Source: a virus
Direction: 5' to 3' (one strand)
IMG/VR virus record: IMGVR_UViG_3300027139_000021
Span: 1 to 26,268 of that record
DNA length: 26,268 bases
Shown: in pieces, positions 7,555 to 26,268 of the stretch
How positions within the stretch are numbered: position 1 is the stretch's first letter
How the letters are laid out: every line of letters starts with the position of its first letter
Made by a program: the position numbers and the translations under genes
Notes under the pieces: generated by a model
The model's database searches: none
What the model was told of the DNA's origin: nothing
The model's input: only the letters and a program-made list of their open reading frames with translations

Positions 7555-7937
7555 CAAATCTTCCTTAATAATTCTACAATATGTTGATCAAGCGTTATAT
7601 CAGAGGATTTGACATTCTGACCTCTCACTCGAACAATATCAGGCATATAATTTAAAAAAACCAGGAAGGTTTTTAGCTCTGGCCAAAACTTTTCCTGGAT
7701 CTTAAAAAATAACATATGGGTGGCAGAATCTGCCCCAAACACATTGTATAAAACTACCAAGTGATTAATTATTAATCGTTCTTTAATATCACCAGTAAGT
7801 TTGTAACGTCCAAGAAGTCTTTTGACATATCTTAGTCGTTTTAGGTCGTCTTCAAATTCTCTTAAACCACTACAGCTAGGATTATCATAGCTTTTAATGG
7901 CAAACATGATGAAGTTTTCATTTGTCAAATCAATCAT
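7554..7937 (-). CDS. Conserved T4-like phage hypothetical protein (127 aa)
   Basis: The product (MIDLTNENFIMFAIKSYDNP ..) matches a small family I recall from T4-like phages: an N-terminal ..FAIKSYDNPSC.. motif, then ..DLKRLRYVKRLLGRY.. and ..ERLIINHLVVLYNVFG..A..MLFFKI... It is mostly alpha-helical with no transmembrane or enzyme motif. An ACTAAATA octamer sits 8 nt before the ATG and no Shine-Dalgarno is obvious. It is coupled to the downstream gene by a TGATG overlap. Function unknown; its constant company with virion genes suggests an assembly or structural role. Confidence 0.75.
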   Translation of the reverse strand: MIDLTNENFIMFAIKSYDNPSCSGLREFEDDLKRLRYVKRLLGRYKLTGDIKERLIINHLVVLYNVFGADSATHMLFFKIQEKFWPELKTFLVFLNYMPDIVRVRGQNVKSSDITLDQHIVELLRKI

Positions 7938-7945
7938 TATAAATG

Positions 7946-7953
7946 TATTTAGT
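7946..7953 (-). promoter_or_regulatory. Late-promoter-like octamer ACTAAATA
   Basis: Minus-strand ACTAAATA (containing CTAAATA, a variant seen in marine T4-like phages) ends 8 nt before the ATG at 7937. By T4 geometry it would give a 2-3 nt leader. Weaker than the exact TATAAATA sites. Confidence 0.4.
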
Positions 7954-8220
7954 CTAAGTTATCGTGACCCAACTTGTCCCGTTATACCACTGAAAAGCAT
8001 TCAAAGTAGTATTGATAATAGTTGAACCAGTCACTGCAACAGCAACAGTTGATGTAGTGTAAACAGGCAAAACTAATACTGTAGTAAAAGCTGTACTTAA
8101 ACTACGAGTTAGGCTGCTAACAGAAATTTTCTTGCTTGTATTACCCTGAACCACGTAGAGCAGGTCTGACGACACTGCTCCCGTAGCAAAGGTTAGTTCG
8201 CTGAGCTTTTGATCAGCCAT
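7954..8220 (-). CDS. Small fibre/appendage-type virion protein
   Basis: The 88-aa product starts MADQKLSELTFATGAVSSDL, followed by LLYVVQGNTSKKISVSSL, a pattern (KLSELT....DLLYVVQG..SKKISV..L) common at the N-termini of phage fibre and adaptor proteins, where it forms the virion-attachment piece. Here the gene ends soon after (..FQWYNGTSWVTIT), with the typical ..WYNGTSW.. closing element, so attachment and closing elements are joined with almost no shaft between them. AGGA precedes the ATG. It is probably a short appendage subunit; partner unknown. Confidence 0.7.
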   Translation of the reverse strand: MADQKLSELTFATGAVSSDLLYVVQGNTSKKISVSSLTRSLSTAFTTVLVLPVYTTSTVAVAVTGSTIINTTLNAFQWYNGTSWVTIT

Positions 8221-8229
8221 GATTTATCC

Positions 8230-8793
8230 TTAAGCTGTTACAGTTACGCCTGTACTACCACTTGCAGCTGCAGTAGCTCTAACAATCGCACTAGTTACAA
8301 CTACAGTTTGTGATGTAATTGCTGTTTGACCAAAGTCATTCACACCTTGTGTAATAGTTTGAGCTGGGATTCTGTATGTTATAGCAGTTGAACTGCCTAC
8401 AGAGAATGTATAGTCAATGAAGTTGCTTGTAGTATTACCTGCTCTTGTAGCTGTAATGTTTACAATACTTGTAGCTGTATTATATTGCTGAACAATTAAT
8501 GTACCAGTTGTAGTTGGTGTGATTCTTTCGTTCCATACAACACGAACTCTACCAGTAGCACCAGTTGAGTAACTTGTGCTTAAGAAGTATACAGCAGAAA
8601 TTGTTGCTGTAGCCAATTTGCTACTTGCAGCATCGCCACCACTTAGGTTACGAATTGCTACCAACACTTCTGTTGTTCCATCAGCTCTTGTTATTTCCCA
8701 ACCCTTTGTTGTAGCAAAGACTCGGCTTTTTTCCTCTTCAGTCAAATTTTTTGGTTTTGACTCTTCGGTTGTATTAGCGCCCCATTGTGGCAT
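8230..8793 (-). CDS. Virion structural protein (MPQWGAN family)
   Basis: The 187-aa product begins MPQWGANTTEESKPKNLTEE and then VFATTKGWEI, an opening I recognise from structural proteins of marine T4-like phages. The rest is Thr/Ala/Val-rich beta sequence with an Ig-like feel (VRVVWNERITPTTTG .. LIVQQYN .. TYRIPAQTITQGVNDF). An exact TATAAATA late promoter lies at 8825-8832, and AAGGAGA is placed just before the ATG, so this gene looks like the first of a late transcript. Assignment as virion protein is from family resemblance and context; no T4 gene name is claimed. Confidence 0.75.
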   Translation of the reverse strand: MPQWGANTTEESKPKNLTEEEKSRVFATTKGWEITRADGTTEVLVAIRNLSGGDAASSKLATATISAVYFLSTSYSTGATGRVRVVWNERITPTTTGTLIVQQYNTATSIVNITATRAGNTTSNFIDYTFSVGSSTAITYRIPAQTITQGVNDFGQTAITSQTVVVTSAIVRATAAASGSTGVTVTA

Positions 8794-8832: not shown

Positions 8833-9843
8833 TTAACTAGCAGCTTGCATTGACTGAACTTTAGTAGAACTTCCGTGATAAACGTGTCTTGATTTCTTAC
8901 CATCTGGGCGAGTTACTACAAAACTGTATTCCATATCACCATTTTTCATTTTTGATTGCTTATCAGAAACCTTGTTACCACCCTTTTCGTGAGCAGCAAT
9001 TTTATCAGTGATTTCCTTAGACATCATGGCTTCTAAGAATACTTCTTCGTTTTTAGCTTTGAAGCCAGCATCTACTTTATTGAAGAATGCTTTCTTTTCT
9101 TCTGGAGTTTTAAAGTCGGCTACAGAAGAAATACCGTGTTTCTTCATGTAAGCTCTGAAGTATGAATCGTAACCTTTCTCAGCTTCTTGGATTTCAAAAG
9201 ACAGTGGAGCATAAGTGATAGTTTCATCAACTGCTTCTAACACTTCTTCTACTTCTTCCTTAGCCATTTTCTTCTTTTGATATTTCTTCATTTGAAGATA
9301 TGCTTTTGAAAGTTCGTTTACTTCTTCTACTTCTTCTTTAACACCGGACTTAACAATTTCTTTTTCACCACCAACTTTAGCTCCAGCAACCATTCCTGGT
9401 GTAGCTTCATTTGGTATAGTGTTATTAGTAGCAGCCTTAGCAGCTTCTAATGCTTTTTCTTTCTCTTTGTCATTCTCAGTGTTACGACTATTGTCACCTT
9501 CTAAAGCTTCAGCTACTTTTTTTTTTGCTTTTGAATGCATGTGCATTTCTGATTGAAGAACCTTAAGCTCTGAAACAGGAACACCTTTTTCTACACCATG
9601 TGGGAATTCAATATCGTACCAAGCAATATTGCCATAACGATCTGGATCTGCATGCTCTTCTGAGATGCAATTACCTTGACCCCATTCAGCGTGTTCAACG
9701 TGTTTAGCACAATTGTGAACAACTTTACCGTCGTCCTTCATCATGCTCGCTTCTTTAACTTCTGCTGTTTCTTCTTGAATTTGTGCAGGCTTATACATTG
9801 CCTTCACTGTTTCAATAACTGTTTTTAAGTTCTTTGTATCCAT
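8833..9843 (-). CDS. Mosaic charged virion/capsid-associated protein with KOW/SH3-like domain
   Basis: The 336-aa product is a string of small modules. Residues ~42-98 form a compact domain (HVEHAEWGQG .. ADPDRYGNIAWYDIEFPHG .. VPVSELKVL) like a KOW/SH3-type unit I recall in several marine T4-like phage proteins. Then follow acidic/basic linkers (EEVEEVNELSKAYLQ; KEEVEEVLEAVDE), a helical unit around KGYDSYFRAYMKKHGI..DFKTPEEKKAFFNKVD, and a basic C-terminus. The segment FEIQEAEKG contains an I-x-E then Ala, which fits the known cleavage preference of T4-type prohead protease. A role inside the capsid is plausible but inferred. GGAG precedes the ATG at 9843. Confidence 0.7.
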   Translation of the reverse strand: MDTKNLKTVIETVKAMYKPAQIQEETAEVKEASMMKDDGKVVHNCAKHVEHAEWGQGNCISEEHADPDRYGNIAWYDIEFPHGVEKGVPVSELKVLQSEMHMHSKAKKKVAEALEGDNSRNTENDKEKEKALEAAKAATNNTIPNEATPGMVAGAKVGGEKEIVKSGVKEEVEEVNELSKAYLQMKKYQKKKMAKEEVEEVLEAVDETITYAPLSFEIQEAEKGYDSYFRAYMKKHGISSVADFKTPEEKKAFFNKVDAGFKAKNEEVFLEAMMSKEITDKIAAHEKGGNKVSDKQSKMKNGDMEYSFVVTRPDGKKSRHVYHGSSTKVQSMQAAS

Positions 9844-9859
9844 TGCCTTCGTTCTCCTG

Positions 9860-10066
9860 TTAATTTTTACTTTTATTCTTTCCCTGAACCATATTTATTC
9901 TCCAATGAGCGAGTTGTTTTGCTCTTGGACTAGCGGTTTCACTACTACGAATCTTCTTCAATTGTGCTATTGTTTTGCCTCTTAATCCTAAACGACCCAT
10001 ATCTCCCTTGTCTTCTGGATTACGGCCATCTTGAAAATTTTCAACAAAGCTCTTAAATCTTTTCAC
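9860..10066 (-). CDS. Small conserved basic phage protein (NPEDKGD..KKIRSS..PRAKQLAHWRINM)
   Basis: A 68-aa basic protein with a pattern I recognise from marine T4-like phages: F..GRNPEDKGD, G.RGKTIAQLKKIRSS, PRAKQLAHWRINM. It most likely starts at the GTG at 10066-10064, which overlaps the upstream stop as TAGTG and has AAGG 7 nt before it; a TTG at 10072 would leave the ribosome-binding site too close. The family is often appended to larger charged proteins, so a virion-associated or nucleic-acid-facing role is possible. Function unknown. Confidence 0.75.
   Translation of the reverse strand: MKRFKSFVENFQDGRNPEDKGDMGRLGLRGKTIAQLKKIRSSETASPRAKQLAHWRINMVQGKNKSKN
9892..9899 (-). promoter_or_regulatory. 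Possible late promoter AATAAATA
   Basis: Minus-strand AATAAATA lies inside the 3' end of the 68-aa gene, 48 nt before the ATG at 9843 and upstream of its GGAG site. One mismatch to TATAAATA. Its position fits a late promoter for the mosaic virion gene, but it also lies in coding sequence and could be chance. Confidence 0.35.
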
Positions 10067-10836
10067 TACCAAGCCTTACAGGACCAATATCTTGCTTTTG
10101 TTTTAGATCCTGGAGTATCACAATTGTGTCTTGCTCTAAAACTCTTACGTCTTGCAGGTATGTTTTTCTTAATTGTCATATTTGGATCACCAAAATTGAC
10201 TTTCTTTACATTACCTGTTGATGGATCCTTCACATATACAGATCTCTTTTTAGGTCCATCTGGCGTCAGAAACGGTTTATTTAAGTTTTTTTTTTCTTCT
10301 TCTTTTAAAGCTTCTTTAGCAGCATCAAGTGTTGTATAAAAAGTCTTTTTCATACCTTTTTTATATGCTGCAAATGAGTTATCGGAGTATTTTTCAATGT
10401 GATCTTCTCCGCTCTTATAAACAACTGGTCCACCACTTTCTTTAACTACTTGTCCAGGAGTTAGCTTTAATAACTTTTTTGTTAATGCAGGTGTTCCTAT
10501 ATCATTTTCAGGACCAAGCTCTTCATTAACATTGGCTTCCATATAGTTTGCAGCAGAGCTAATATAGTCTTCTGCTTTTGTAATCTTAGATTGTACCCAT
10601 TCAGGAAGATTAGTATTCTCTTCCATCATGTCATGAAGACGTTTGGCATTGTACATAATACTTCTAAGATCAGACATTGCCATGTCACCTTCGTAATCAT
10701 ACTCTCTTGGATCTTGAGCTTCTTTTACAGGTACGCAGTTAGGAACTGTGCGACCATTCTTTTCTTTTGTCCCAACTGGCTTATAGCCTTTCCAACATGG
10801 ATTATTAGTTCTTAAAGATTTAAATGTCTTTTTCAT
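10066..10836 (-). CDS. Mosaic phage protein with three recognisable small domains
   Basis: The 256-aa product joins: (i) a Cys-containing N-terminal unit (NNPCWKGYKPVGTKEKNGRT, then VPNCVPV, residues ~11-38); (ii) a helical unit (YDYEGDMAMSDLRSIMYNAK .. EWVQSKITKAEDYISSAANYM, ~47-98) widespread in T4-like marine phages; (iii) a C-terminal basic unit (KRSVYVKDP..VKKVNFGDPNM .. ARRKSFRARHNCDTPG .. ARYWSCKAW) with conserved Cys and Arg that suggests metal or nucleic-acid binding. The ATG at 10836 overlaps the upstream stop (TAATG), and its ribosome-binding site GGAGGAGGAG (10841-10850) is made of the glycine codons ending the upstream gene. Probably virion-associated; function not known. Confidence 0.75.
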   Translation of the reverse strand: MKKTFKSLRTNNPCWKGYKPVGTKEKNGRTVPNCVPVKEAQDPREYDYEGDMAMSDLRSIMYNAKRLHDMMEENTNLPEWVQSKITKAEDYISSAANYMEANVNEELGPENDIGTPALTKKLLKLTPGQVVKESGGPVVYKSGEDHIEKYSDNSFAAYKKGMKKTFYTTLDAAKEALKEEEKKNLNKPFLTPDGPKKRSVYVKDPSTGNVKKVNFGDPNMTIKKNIPARRKSFRARHNCDTPGSKTKARYWSCKAW

Positions 10837-23046: not shown

Positions 23047-23325
23047 ATGGATATTTTTCAACTAATTGCAGAAGTCGGTTTTCCTATAGCAGCAGCTTGT
23101 GCTGGTGGCTATTTTGTATTTTTAACATTGAAATTCATTTTAGCTGGAGTTATGAGTTCGATCAAGGGATTAACAGGCATTATTAGTGCCTTGGATAATC
23201 GTGTTAAAACTATGAACCACGAAATCATTCGAATCGATATGTTGGTTAGTAACGCCTTAGGAGTAAGACCAGACGTTGATCGTATTGCAAGAGCAGATGG
23301 AAAAAACGACGCAAGAAAGGATTAA
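23047..23325 (+). CDS. Small membrane protein, holin-like or YvrJ-like (copy 1)
   Basis: The 92-aa product starts MDIFQLIAEVGFPIAAACAG and has one hydrophobic segment (GFPIAAACAGGYFVFLTLKFILAGV, ~11-35) followed by a helical, partly charged tail. The opening MDI..LI...GFPI...GGYFV is repeated in the 24226-24501 product, and the tails also align (..L..D..RM..M/L..I.R.D), so the two are paralogues. The GFPI..-type segment resembles the short YvrJ family seen near phage lysis genes. It precedes a lipase. A holin or lipase-associated membrane role is an inference from topology and context. Confidence 0.7.
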   Translation: MDIFQLIAEVGFPIAAACAGGYFVFLTLKFILAGVMSSIKGLTGIISALDNRVKTMNHEIIRIDMLVSNALGVRPDVDRIARADGKNDARKD

Positions 23326-23326
23326 C

Positions 23327-24124
23327 ATGGATCACCTACCATTAGAAGAAAGACCATTCACGCAACAAGCAGCTTTAATGGCAAAACTAAGTGAATTGGC
23401 TTATAAAGATATAAGAGATGTAGAAGAGAGTTTTGCACAACTTGGATTCAATGCACATTTCTTTGACGTAAATGGATCACAAGCATACTTACTTACAAAT
23501 GCTCATGACTTAGTAGTTGTTTGTCGTGGAACAGAACCAACAGAATTTAAAGATATCAAGGCCGATCTTGATGCAAGAATGGTTCCTAGCTCAACAGGAA
23601 TTGGTCATGTTCATAAAGGATTTAAAAGCTCTGTTGATAACATTTGGCCAGGCTTGAAAGAACAATTAAATGATTATGGTAAAACAAGACAAGTTTGGTG
23701 TACAGGACATAGCTTAGGTGCTGCAATGGCAACACTGTTAGCTTACAGATTACAAAGATCAGTAGATTGTCCAAACCCTAAGGCACTATTTACATTTGGT
23801 AGTCCTAGAGTTGGAAATAAGAAATACGTAAAAGAAATTGAAAGTATTGGACTCCTACACTATAGATTTGTGAATAACGCAGACATAGTAGCAAGAGTGC
23901 CACCCTGGCCATACAGACACTTTGGTGGAATGTATTATATGAACCACTGGGGTAACCTAAGAACGATTTCGTTTTTACAAGTAACTCAAGATGTATGGCG
24001 TGGTTTCATTAAAGGTGTAAAGAAAAGAGAAATTAACTTCTTTAGTAATCACAACATAACTAGATATTGGCATAACTTAAACAACTGGGCTAATGGTGTT
24101 GAAAGACAGCAAGATGACATTTAA
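23327..24124 (+). CDS. Class 3 (alpha/beta-hydrolase) lipase
   Basis: I place the start at ATG 23327 (265 aa), right after the previous stop and preceded by AAGGATTAAC; a longer upstream reading lacks such a site. The fold markers of the fungal-type lipase_3 family are all present: oxyanion-side motif CRGTE (66-70), nucleophile elbow GHSLG with Ser129, LFTFGSPRVGN (154-164), acid NNADIV with Asp186, and a C-terminal His candidate at 198 or 207 (YRHFGG..YYMNH). No signal peptide is visible, so it probably acts in the cytoplasm or is released at lysis. It may attack host phospholipids or storage lipids. It is flanked by related membrane proteins. Confidence 0.9.
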   Translation: MDHLPLEERPFTQQAALMAKLSELAYKDIRDVEESFAQLGFNAHFFDVNGSQAYLLTNAHDLVVVCRGTEPTEFKDIKADLDARMVPSSTGIGHVHKGFKSSVDNIWPGLKEQLNDYGKTRQVWCTGHSLGAAMATLLAYRLQRSVDCPNPKALFTFGSPRVGNKKYVKEIESIGLLHYRFVNNADIVARVPPWPYRHFGGMYYMNHWGNLRTISFLQVTQDVWRGFIKGVKKREINFFSNHNITRYWHNLNNWANGVERQQDDI

Positions 24125-24248
24125 AGAATGGCTTTTTGCTGGTGTGTGTTTTGCTTTGTTTTACTTAGCAGTAAATGAAATTAATTATAAACCTGTAACA
24201 ATAGAATTGAAAGAAATAGAAGTGCATGGACATAGTAGAAATAATTAA
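24114..24248 (+). CDS. 44-aa single-pass membrane peptide
   Basis: ATG at 24114 opens 44 codons to TAA at 24246-24248, overlapping the lipase end by 11 nt and the next gene by 23 nt. The product (MTFKEWLFAGVCFALFYLAV ..) has one N-terminal hydrophobic segment (residues ~6-20) then a charged tail with NEINYKPVTIELKEIEVHGH. No clear ribosome-binding site; coupling to lipase translation is possible. It could be a small i-spanin-like or holin-accessory peptide, but this is speculative. Confidence 0.5.
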   Translation: MTFKEWLFAGVCFALFYLAVNEINYKPVTIELKEIEVHGHSRNN

Positions 24249-24501
24249 TAAATATGGTTTTCCCATAATAGCAGCTATTGGTGGTGGCTATTTTGTTTAT
24301 TACGTATGGGTTTGGGCTACCAATGAAGTAGATCCAGTCTTAAGTGAAGCACATACAACATTGATTGCACTGATTGACCGTATACGAATGCTAGATAATG
24401 ATTTAATACGACTCAACCAAAAGATTAACATTGTAACAATGCTCAAGGATTTGGAAAATGAAAAACTTCACAAGCCTACTAATCATCCTGATAGGGATTA
24501 A
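24226..24501 (+). CDS. Small membrane protein, holin-like or YvrJ-like (copy 2)
   Basis: The 91-aa product (MDIVEIINKYGFPIIAAIGG, then GYFVYYVWVWATN) is a paralogue of the 23047-23325 product: same GFPI and GGYFV elements in the single hydrophobic segment (~11-31), similar tail with LIALIDRIRMLDNDLIRLNQK. The tail is a candidate coiled coil. It overlaps the csgF-like start by 44 nt, tying it to the curli genes. It may help anchor or energise the neighbouring secretion or lysis functions; function unproven. Confidence 0.7.
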   Translation: MDIVEIINKYGFPIIAAIGGGYFVYYVWVWATNEVDPVLSEAHTTLIALIDRIRMLDNDLIRLNQKINIVTMLKDLENEKLHKPTNHPDRD

Positions 24502-24904
24502 TCAGGCTCATTCCGCTCCTCTTCAAGATTATACATTTAAAAGTCCGTCATTCAACGGCAATGGCTACTCTAGTCATGTTCTTACTTTAGAGAACCAAGA
24601 ACGTACTCGTAAAGAAAACATCAAAAAAGAAATTCAAGCTGGGTTAGATAAAGCTAAGAATGATCAGAACAATACTAACGTAGCTAAGTTTCTTAACAAT
24701 TTAGAAAGTCGTATCTATGCTCAGATCAGTCAAAACTTAGCAACAGAGATGTTTGCTGATGGTGGAGCTACAAGTGGTACATTAAATTTTGAAGGTAATG
24801 TAATTAATTGGACAAGAAGTGGTACTGAAATCACTTTGAATGTCACTGACTATGTTGGGTCAACAACAACGGTTTCGATACCTTTAGGTCAATGGCAATT
24901 CTAA
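24458..24904 (+). CDS. csgF: CsgF-like curli assembly protein
   Basis: The 148-aa product has a Sec signal peptide (MKNFTSLLIILIGINQAHS, cut after Ser19) and a mature start APLQDYTFKSPSFNGNGY that matches the CsgF N-terminal pattern F.F..P.FGGN, the segment known to insert in the CsgG pore. The C-terminal part (INWTRSGTEITLNVTD, then TTTVSIPL) matches the CsgF pattern ..I..R.GQLQLNVTD..TG.TSTI... The middle is a longer charged helix than in E. coli CsgF (138 aa precursor). CsgF caps the CsgG channel and couples secretion to fibre nucleation. AAGGA lies 10 nt before the ATG; the stop overlaps the csgG start. Confidence 0.88.
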   Translation: MKNFTSLLIILIGINQAHSAPLQDYTFKSPSFNGNGYSSHVLTLENQERTRKENIKKEIQAGLDKAKNDQNNTNVAKFLNNLESRIYAQISQNLATEMFADGGATSGTLNFEGNVINWTRSGTEITLNVTDYVGSTTTVSIPLGQWQF

Positions 24905-25704
24905 TGTACAGATTACTAATTTTATTAGTACTAATACTACTGACTGGCTGTGCTACAACACGAGTAGTTACAGGACCAGATAAGCCTATAGAAGTGAGAA
25001 GTATCATGCAAAAAGAGTTTGATACTTTACCTCCTCCTACAGGAAAACCTATTACGGTTGCTGTCTATACCTTTGCTGATAAAACAGGTCAGCGTCGTCC
25101 AGCACCAAATTATGCTAACTTGAGCTCAGCTGTGACTCAAGGCAGTGAAGCTTTTTTAATTAAGGCTCTACAAGATGTTGGTAAGAGTAAATGGTTTGAA
25201 GTTGTTGAACGAGTTGGTATTGATTCTTTAACAAAAGAAAGACAACTGATTCGTCAAATGAGAGAAGCATATGAAGGCGCTAATGCTAAACCTCTAGGAC
25301 CAATGGCATTTGCAGGCATCATTCTTGAAGGCGGCATTACTGGATATGATACTAGTACAAAAAGTGGTGGTAGTGCATGGCGTATGTTAGGAATTGGGCC
25401 ACAAACTCAGTATAGCGAAGATATAGTAACAGTAAGTTTGAGAGCTGTAAGTGTTAATTCAGGAAAAGTTTTAGCAGCTGTTAATATACAAAAAACAATA
25501 TACAGCGCAAGTGATAGTATGGCTGTATTAAAGTTTGTGAAAGATGGCACACAAGCCTTTGAAATAGAAAGTGGACTTACCATCAATGAACCAGGCACTC
25601 AAGCAGTGAAGGCTGCAATAGAAAGTGCCGTAGTGGAGTTAATTAAAGAAGGAAGCAAAAAAGGTATCTGGGACTTCTCCTACGAACCATTGCAACCACA
25701 ATAA
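24892..25704 (+). CDS. csgG: CsgG-like outer-membrane curli secretion pore (lipoprotein)
   Basis: The 270-aa product (E. coli CsgG 277) has a lipoprotein signal with lipobox LTGC (Cys20 from this start) and follows CsgG closely: LPPPTGKPITVAVYTFADKT, the constriction-loop region APNYANLSSAV (71-81), ALQDV..SKWFEVVERVG, KERQLIRQMRE, ILEGGITGYD..TKSGG, GIGPQTQYSEDIVTVSLRAV, a final GIWDF. CsgG forms a nonameric outer-membrane channel for unfolded curlin. In E. coli the eyelet is Tyr51/Asn55/Phe56 of the mature form; here Asn76 is kept, Phe is Leu77, and a Tyr is at 74. A second ATG at 24904 forms TAATG with the csgF stop and gives a shorter signal peptide (Cys16). Confidence 0.93.
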   Translation: MAILMYRLLILLVLILLTGCATTRVVTGPDKPIEVRSIMQKEFDTLPPPTGKPITVAVYTFADKTGQRRPAPNYANLSSAVTQGSEAFLIKALQDVGKSKWFEVVERVGIDSLTKERQLIRQMREAYEGANAKPLGPMAFAGIILEGGITGYDTSTKSGGSAWRMLGIGPQTQYSEDIVTVSLRAVSVNSGKVLAAVNIQKTIYSASDSMAVLKFVKDGTQAFEIESGLTINEPGTQAVKAAIESAVVELIKEGSKKGIWDFSYEPLQPQ

Positions 25705-25713
25705 GGAGTAAAA

Positions 25714-26268
25714 ATGTTTAACGCATTTAAACTTTTTGTAATGGTTTTATTATTCAGCATTAGTGCATTTGCTGCTGATAATAGCATTTATATCGATCAG
25801 AGTGGAGATAACAGTACCATTGATGTAACCCAAACTGGTGCTGGTAACGTCATTAGAGGCATACAAGGAGTTGGTACAGGAAATACAACACCAGCTAAAA
25901 TGTATGGTAACAATAGTACTATTGACATCCAACAAATAGGTTCAACAAATACATTGAATCTAGGTGTTAATGTTAGTACAGCTACTGGCCGTGCATATGG
26001 TATTGACTTAACTTACTATGTTACTGGTAATAACGCTACTGCTACTATCAATAGTAATAACGACGGTGCAGGAACATCTGCTTCTAACTTTATCGATGTT
26101 CGTCAAACTGGTAACAGTGCTAGCATTAACTTAAACATGCTTGGTAGCAAAAATAACTTTACTGCTGTAACTTCAGGTGGTGCAAGCAATGCTATTACAG
26201 CAACTATTAATGCTGATGAAACAGTATCTAATATCAGTATAACAGGTGGCGGTGGTAATACTTTGACA
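25714..26268 (+). CDS. Secreted curlin-repeat (CsgA/CsgB-like) protein, open at window edge
   Basis: ATG at 25714, with AAGGAG 5 nt before it and 9 nt after the csgG stop, opens a frame that reaches the last base without a stop (185 codons). Residues 1-20 (MFNAFKLFVMVLLFSISAFA) are a Sec signal peptide cut before ADNS. The mature part has curlin-type repeats with the Q-x-G-x-N pattern: IDQSGDNSTIDVTQTGAGN (27-45), IDIQQIGSTNTLNL (70-83), IDVRQTGNSASINL (127-140), plus more degenerate Asn/Gly/Thr-rich strands. Curlins stack such repeats into amyloid beta-solenoids. The C-terminal part is missing, so length and full repeat number are unknown. It is the probable substrate of the CsgG-CsgF pore. 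Confidence 0.85.
   Translation, partial: MFNAFKLFVMVLLFSISAFAADNSIYIDQSGDNSTIDVTQTGAGNVIRGIQGVGTGNTTPAKMYGNNSTIDIQQIGSTNTLNLGVNVSTATGRAYGIDLTYYVTGNNATATINSNNDGAGTSASNFIDVRQTGNSASINLNMLGSKNNFTAVTSGGASNAITATINADETVSNISITGGGGNTLT

Follow-up and report, generated by a model that had tools for sequence, protein, structure and literature searches.

The window analysed here, the whole 26,268-bp stretch of the virus record IMGVR_UViG_3300027139_000021, almost certainly carries part of the known phage type VIII secretion (curli) module, and appears to hold the left half of this module, which is common to many T4-like and other aquatic phages. Three genes, csgF (24458–24904), csgG (24904–25704) and a curlin gene (25714 to the contig end), formed a single run in this fragment of a T4-like virus, with csgF first and directly adjacent to csgG, the arrangement by which the published phage module is recognized. 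The run is unbroken up to the contig end and is a new, divergent member of a module already published by 2022, and in relatives the module continues beyond the point corresponding to the contig end of the window. We propose that such a module would display exported, adhesive curlin-type fibres on the infected cell, a mechanism read from sequence to which we assign a probability of about 0.6. The features of the window were as follows.

23047–23325 (+): TM1, 92 aa, one apparent N-terminal membrane segment followed by a coiled region; phrog_18771
23276–24124 (+): class 3 lipase with a GHSLG motif, between TM1 and TM2; Pfam PF01764, E = 2.8e-28
24226–24501 (+): TM2, a 91-aa paralog of TM1; phrog_18771; overlaps the start of csgF by 44 nt
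24458–24904 (+): csgF, 148 aa with a signal peptide; Pfam PF10614, E = 1.4e-15
24904–25704 (+): csgG, a predicted 266-aa lipoprotein and outer-membrane channel subunit; Pfam PF03783, E = 3.1e-47
25703–25708 (+): AAGGAG in the sequence, the likely ribosome-binding site of the curlin gene
25714–26268 (+): curlin-like gene 1, CsgA/B-like, with a signal peptide and curlin-type repeats; open at the contig end

UvsX, a helicase and a gp43-type polymerase, all T4-like, were encoded on the minus strand, and the polymerase was closest to those of cyanomyophages (~47% identity). After gp43, the plus strand carried small to medium genes and then csgF, csgG and the curlin-repeat gene at its end. The T4-like setting next to gp43, proposed in the first-pass annotation of this DNA, was therefore supported by both the domain matches and the polymerase comparison. 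The csg module probably begins at 23047, upstream of the three genes. The lipase ORF opened with TTG at 23276 and its domain could be read from 23306; the gene, which is accessory, occurred in only a handful of relatives besides the nearest ones. Distant relatives of this lipase occurred in cyanophages such as P-SSM2. Between positions 1 and 15000, most tested proteins had no Pfam match, and the DNA resembled cyanophage virion genes only in patches. Promoter and terminator scans of the window gave chance-level results, and tRNA and Rfam searches returned no match.

CsgF scored 58 bits against PF10614 (cut-off 25.8). CsgG carried a putative lipobox (LTGC, cysteine codon 24949–24951) and its sequence aligned over nearly the full length with solved structures of E. 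coli CsgG (3x2r/4uv3; best E = 6e-48). Both gene identities assigned in the first-pass annotation were thus upheld by the Pfam matches and, for CsgG, by the match to solved structures. Its csgG start at 24892 was not: the gene probably starts at 24904, because this ATG overlaps the csgF stop codon (TAATG) and is the start used in close relatives (266 aa). Export signals were judged by eye to be present at the N-termini of CsgF, CsgG and the curlin protein. The N-terminal YTFKSPSFNGNG segment of CsgF resembles the plug that E. coli CsgF places inside the CsgG barrel. Four module genes are under purifying selection; dN was far below dS in csgF, csgG, TM2 and curlin 1, with several dS values saturated, and csgG compared with its counterpart in the near relative L004 gave dN 0.058 and dS 0.86.

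In the curlin ORF, one PF07012 repeat passed the curated cut-off (24.2 bits, threshold 20.7), and CsgA was matched weakly. The strict QxGxxN motif occurred twice, a count attained in 10 of 5000 shuffles. The frame could be followed to the right in another contig (L002), whose CsgG was a 100% match to that of the window and whose first 184 curlin residues were identical; it lengthened the frame to about 230 aa. Curlin 1 was complete at 261 aa in the near relative L064, and at 256–262 aa in most close relatives. Because of this extension and the complete frames of the relatives, the ORF continues as a curlin-like protein, so that the curlin-repeat substrate claimed earlier, together with its above-threshold repeat, was borne out. 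A family profile of curlin 1 also found solved curlin structures (8c50, 1.5e-7; 8enq, 3.4e-4). For a complete relative with 92% identity, AlphaFold gave an all-beta repeat of strands and loops in which two strands take up ~23 residues (pLDDT 82, pTM 0.80), and a Foldseek search of the PDB with this model gave no significant match. The curlin-like status of gene 1 is well supported. Amyloid formation by the predicted protein is not certain, since its repeats are degenerate, with two strict motifs, and the PDB search gave no confident fold match.

The anatomy of the module was counted in 87 viral loci with a complete csgG, the later genes being counted where the contig was long enough. csgF lay upstream of csgG in 85 of 86 loci, and a curlin gene directly followed csgG in all 78 loci with room downstream. 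FecR came after csgG in 65/65 loci, and a CHASE2 adenylate cyclase was present in 36/36; the FecR, CHASE2 and cyclase domains of the relatives were confirmed with Pfam. Gene identity and gene order are thereby established, and the occurrence of curlin after csgG in every such locus makes the paired substrate a constant feature. Among the nearest relatives, L064 and L004 had FecR and a second curlin, and L064 also had the cyclase. By analogy with these relatives, the phage of the window would carry a second curlin, FecR and the cyclase beyond the contig end. The module had been described as a minimal version of the curli operon. The constancy of the downstream FecR and cyclase means that it is not, and relatives add FecR, often a second curlin, the CHASE2 cyclase and two small membrane proteins. 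In two loci (L012:12188–13920 and L014:12037–13939), a metallophosphoesterase and a group 1 glycosyltransferase stood between the second curlin and the cyclase; the two may form a module-linked pair that modifies the surface.

The pairing of pore and substrate had been regarded as the new part of this locus. It is not new: HTVC008M has an annotated CsgB, Melnitz has two curlin genes, and CsgA/B is universal in phage modules (PMC9599517). That study (Wittmers et al., 2022) described the phage module as CsgF-CsgG-CsgA/B-FecR-CsgA/B-adenylate cyclase in podo- and myo-pelagiphages, and detected it in metatranscriptomes and at each of the 65 GOV2.0 stations that it covered. A pelagimyophage cluster and the idea of "sibling capture" have also been described (PMC7029224), and the purposes proposed in the first-pass annotation (superinfection block, aggregation, open pore) were largely already in print.

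The noted absence of CsgC, CsgD and CsgE held. For CsgE, the periplasmic cap, neither the module genes of the window nor the annotated regions of Melnitz and HTVC008M gave a match, and CsgE is not essential (PMC7029224). An open pore with no CsgE cap could serve as a channel through which the infected cell takes up cofactors or nutrients, as suggested in both PMC7029224 and PMC9599517. The lack of a CsgE homolog agrees with such a role, which nevertheless leaves CsgF, the invariable curlin genes and the head exchange described below unexplained, and we consider it very improbable.

The second curlin gene, which lies outside the window, often encoded an N-terminal domain (head) of 200–300 aa ahead of the curlin tail, and some relatives had no such headed gene. 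In two pairs of loci, L036/L039 and L030/L057, csgG, curlin 1 and the second-curlin tail were 97–99% identical and FecR was 89–97% identical. The second-curlin tails of these pairs agreed at 97–98%, the heads at 42%. Such heads on nearly identical modules are as expected from recombination of whole heads, and head exchange is thus observed in the relatives. The second curlins compared were L036:4961–6271 with L039:4038–5423, and L030:5008–6225 with L057:2351–3619, in each case a PA14 head against another head. A PA14 head exceeded the curated Pfam cut-off in five phages (L064, L010, L030, L036 and HTVC008M). Its model, of moderate confidence (pLDDT 71), resembled, at Foldseek E values of 4e-7 to 8e-5, the sugar-binding PA14 domain of Marinomonas and yeast flocculins. 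Neither head exchange nor PA14 on the second curlin was found in the literature searched or in the main text of PMC9599517. The exchangeable heads favour fibres with specific binding over a bare pore. The same anatomy would also suit a fibre coat directed mainly against superinfection by other phages rather than at the capture of cells or particles, as suggested in PMC9599517. Lectin-like heads that are exchanged fit specific binding better, although a coat is still compatible with them, and we regard protection as an unlikely main purpose.

TM1 and TM2 adjoined the module in one orientation or the other. Used as the only queries, these proteins recovered 79 further viral loci; TM1 was also present in 78 of them, and another module gene in 72, the remaining seven being contig pieces of 5–7 kb. 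This disfavours the view that they are ordinary phage genes unrelated to curli. Conversely, TM1 or TM2 occurred in 20 of the 25 viral csgG loci with wide flanks, and in a minority they are located elsewhere or missing. In the phage collection, TM2 was restricted to isolates that have csgG, and neither gene was present in any of the 72 bacterial csgG loci. TM1 and TM2 are thus near-constant phage partners of the csg module, a relationship not found in the literature searched. According to PMC9599517, one or two histidine kinases invariably lie ahead of the module, and we infer that these are the TM1/TM2 genes. At ~92 aa and with no kinase domain in Pfam, they were ruled out as histidine kinases. 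The simplest guess is a membrane-level regulator or a secretion helper.

A different role for these small proteins would follow if the CsgG-CsgF pore had been repurposed as a gated channel that times lysis or depolarises the envelope, with holin-like TM1/TM2 and the curlins secondary. A lysis role was proposed for Melnitz (PMC9004378), and the small size of TM1/TM2, their one apparent membrane segment and their linkage to the module in 72/79 loci would be in line with it. Their weak match to a holin PHROG (E about 0.03), however, lies within the chance range, and a pore alone would not account for the curlin kept after csgG in 78/78 loci, the purifying selection on curlin 1 or the diversification of the second-curlin heads. 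Moreover, holin-type lysis is not under the control of the outer membrane, where CsgG is located. We therefore doubt this explanation.

Adhesive fibre display is the best-supported of these readings, ahead of lysis timing, uptake and superinfection exclusion. In it, the infected cell would make a CsgG channel in the outer membrane with its CsgF adaptor, and the phage's own curlin-type protein would be exported through CsgG to form fibres on the cell surface. In relatives, a second, headed curlin would come from the same gene row, the head acting as an exchangeable binding domain that is PA14 lectin-like in the nearest complete relative. Because of this head, the fibres would most likely attach the infected cell to sugars carried by nearby cells or particles. 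The downstream FecR and CHASE2 adenylate cyclase and the upstream small membrane proteins would probably have a sensing or regulatory part in this. The predicted steps are assembly, secretion, amyloid formation, sugar binding and the benefit to the phage. Curli are not known to have been demonstrated on any phage-infected cell, and no clumping was observed in the Melnitz study (PMC9004378). Other points against this reading are the absence of CsgE, the degenerate curlin repeats, the relatives that have no headed second curlin, and the position of the second curlin, FecR and cyclase beyond the contig end. More tentatively, exchangeable glycan-binding heads on the fibres might turn the infected cell into a selective trap for certain neighbouring cells or particles, with the two phage-specific membrane proteins operating the system; it is also only a tentative suggestion that the head is swapped by recombination like a tail-fibre tip while the fibre and secretion parts stay constant.

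If the module works in this way, a lytic virus would allow streamlined plankton cells lacking curli genes of their own to adhere to neighbours or particles during infection, with consequences in dilute water for aggregation, superinfection and encounter rates. The pattern of head exchange makes the "sibling capture" idea testable, since the binding of given surface sugars would then be expected to depend on the head. The pore and its substrate were already known; the TM1/TM2 partners, the recombining heads of the second curlin and a chromosomal module in Hyphomonas are new relative to the literature searched.

In the CsgG tree, the window fell within one viral clade, split from bacteria with an SH-aLRT of 100. 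The search for the csgF-csgG-curlin trio, suggested like the tree in the first-pass annotation, showed that the trio recurs in viral loci. The only chromosomal bacterial CsgG within the viral clade belonged to Hyphomonas sp. TMED17 (705-kb contig), where a csgF-csgG-curlin-FecR-CHASE2 cyclase row (L083:7459–13482, NHBW01000006.1) lay between ordinary host genes. Among the 72 bacterial csgG loci, this was the one with phage-type FecR and cyclase nearby. According to a published statement, these two genes do not occur within bacterial csg operons; the Hyphomonas row is therefore at least one exception, and such a module was not found in the literature searched. Since its CsgG branch is long (1.24), this strain may be related to the donor or may have received the module from a phage. 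The source of the module was probably alphaproteobacterium-like. A CHASE2 search in the group of this strain returned no second bacterial curlin-FecR-cyclase row among short loci, and a viral search seeded with the Hyphomonas curlin found nothing.

Some records were set aside. The "Salmonella phage" CsgG of OR851715.1 (L080), a 1.5-kb unverified contig, groups with bacterial CsgG and is most likely host DNA. Eight contigs labelled as Flavobacteriaceae, Pirellulales, Pelagibacter, Synechococcus and others (L081, L082, L084, L086, L089, L137, L142 and L151) were rejected as bacterial curli and treated as misbinned phage DNA; they carried the phage-type module, in most cases together with TM1/TM2, and most of them were short.

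Among known systems, E. coli csgBAC-csgDEFG shares CsgG and CsgF homologs and a curlin-type substrate with the window, whereas CsgC, CsgD and CsgE were not seen in the window module. At the channel constriction, Y51 and F56 of E. coli CsgG are replaced by A and L, changes that are also common in bacterial CsgG, and a Salmonella-type CsgG was 40% identical to that of the window. Alphaproteobacterial csg operons have the same csgF-csgG-curlin order, but TM1/TM2 are a difference (0/72 bacterial csgG loci). The relatives of the window resemble the pelagiphage module in FecR, the second curlin and the CHASE2 adenylate cyclase. HTVC008M (KC465899) has annotated CsgF, CsgG and "curlin minor subunit CsgB" in the same order as the window and, like it, two small genes directly upstream of csgF. 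In contrast to HTVC008M, whose CsgG is 44% identical, the window module adjoins gp43 on the opposite strand and has a lipase between the two small upstream genes. Melnitz (MZ577097, a Methylophilales phage) has CsgF, CsgG, two curlin-repeat proteins, FecR and the cyclase in the same order; its CsgG is 45% identical to that of the window, and it has no lipase at that place. Its paper stated that csgA/csgB are lacking (PMC9004378), contrary to the annotation of the GenBank record (L078, MZ577097.1), which has two "curlin associated repeat" genes at 7812–8531 and 9590–10606.
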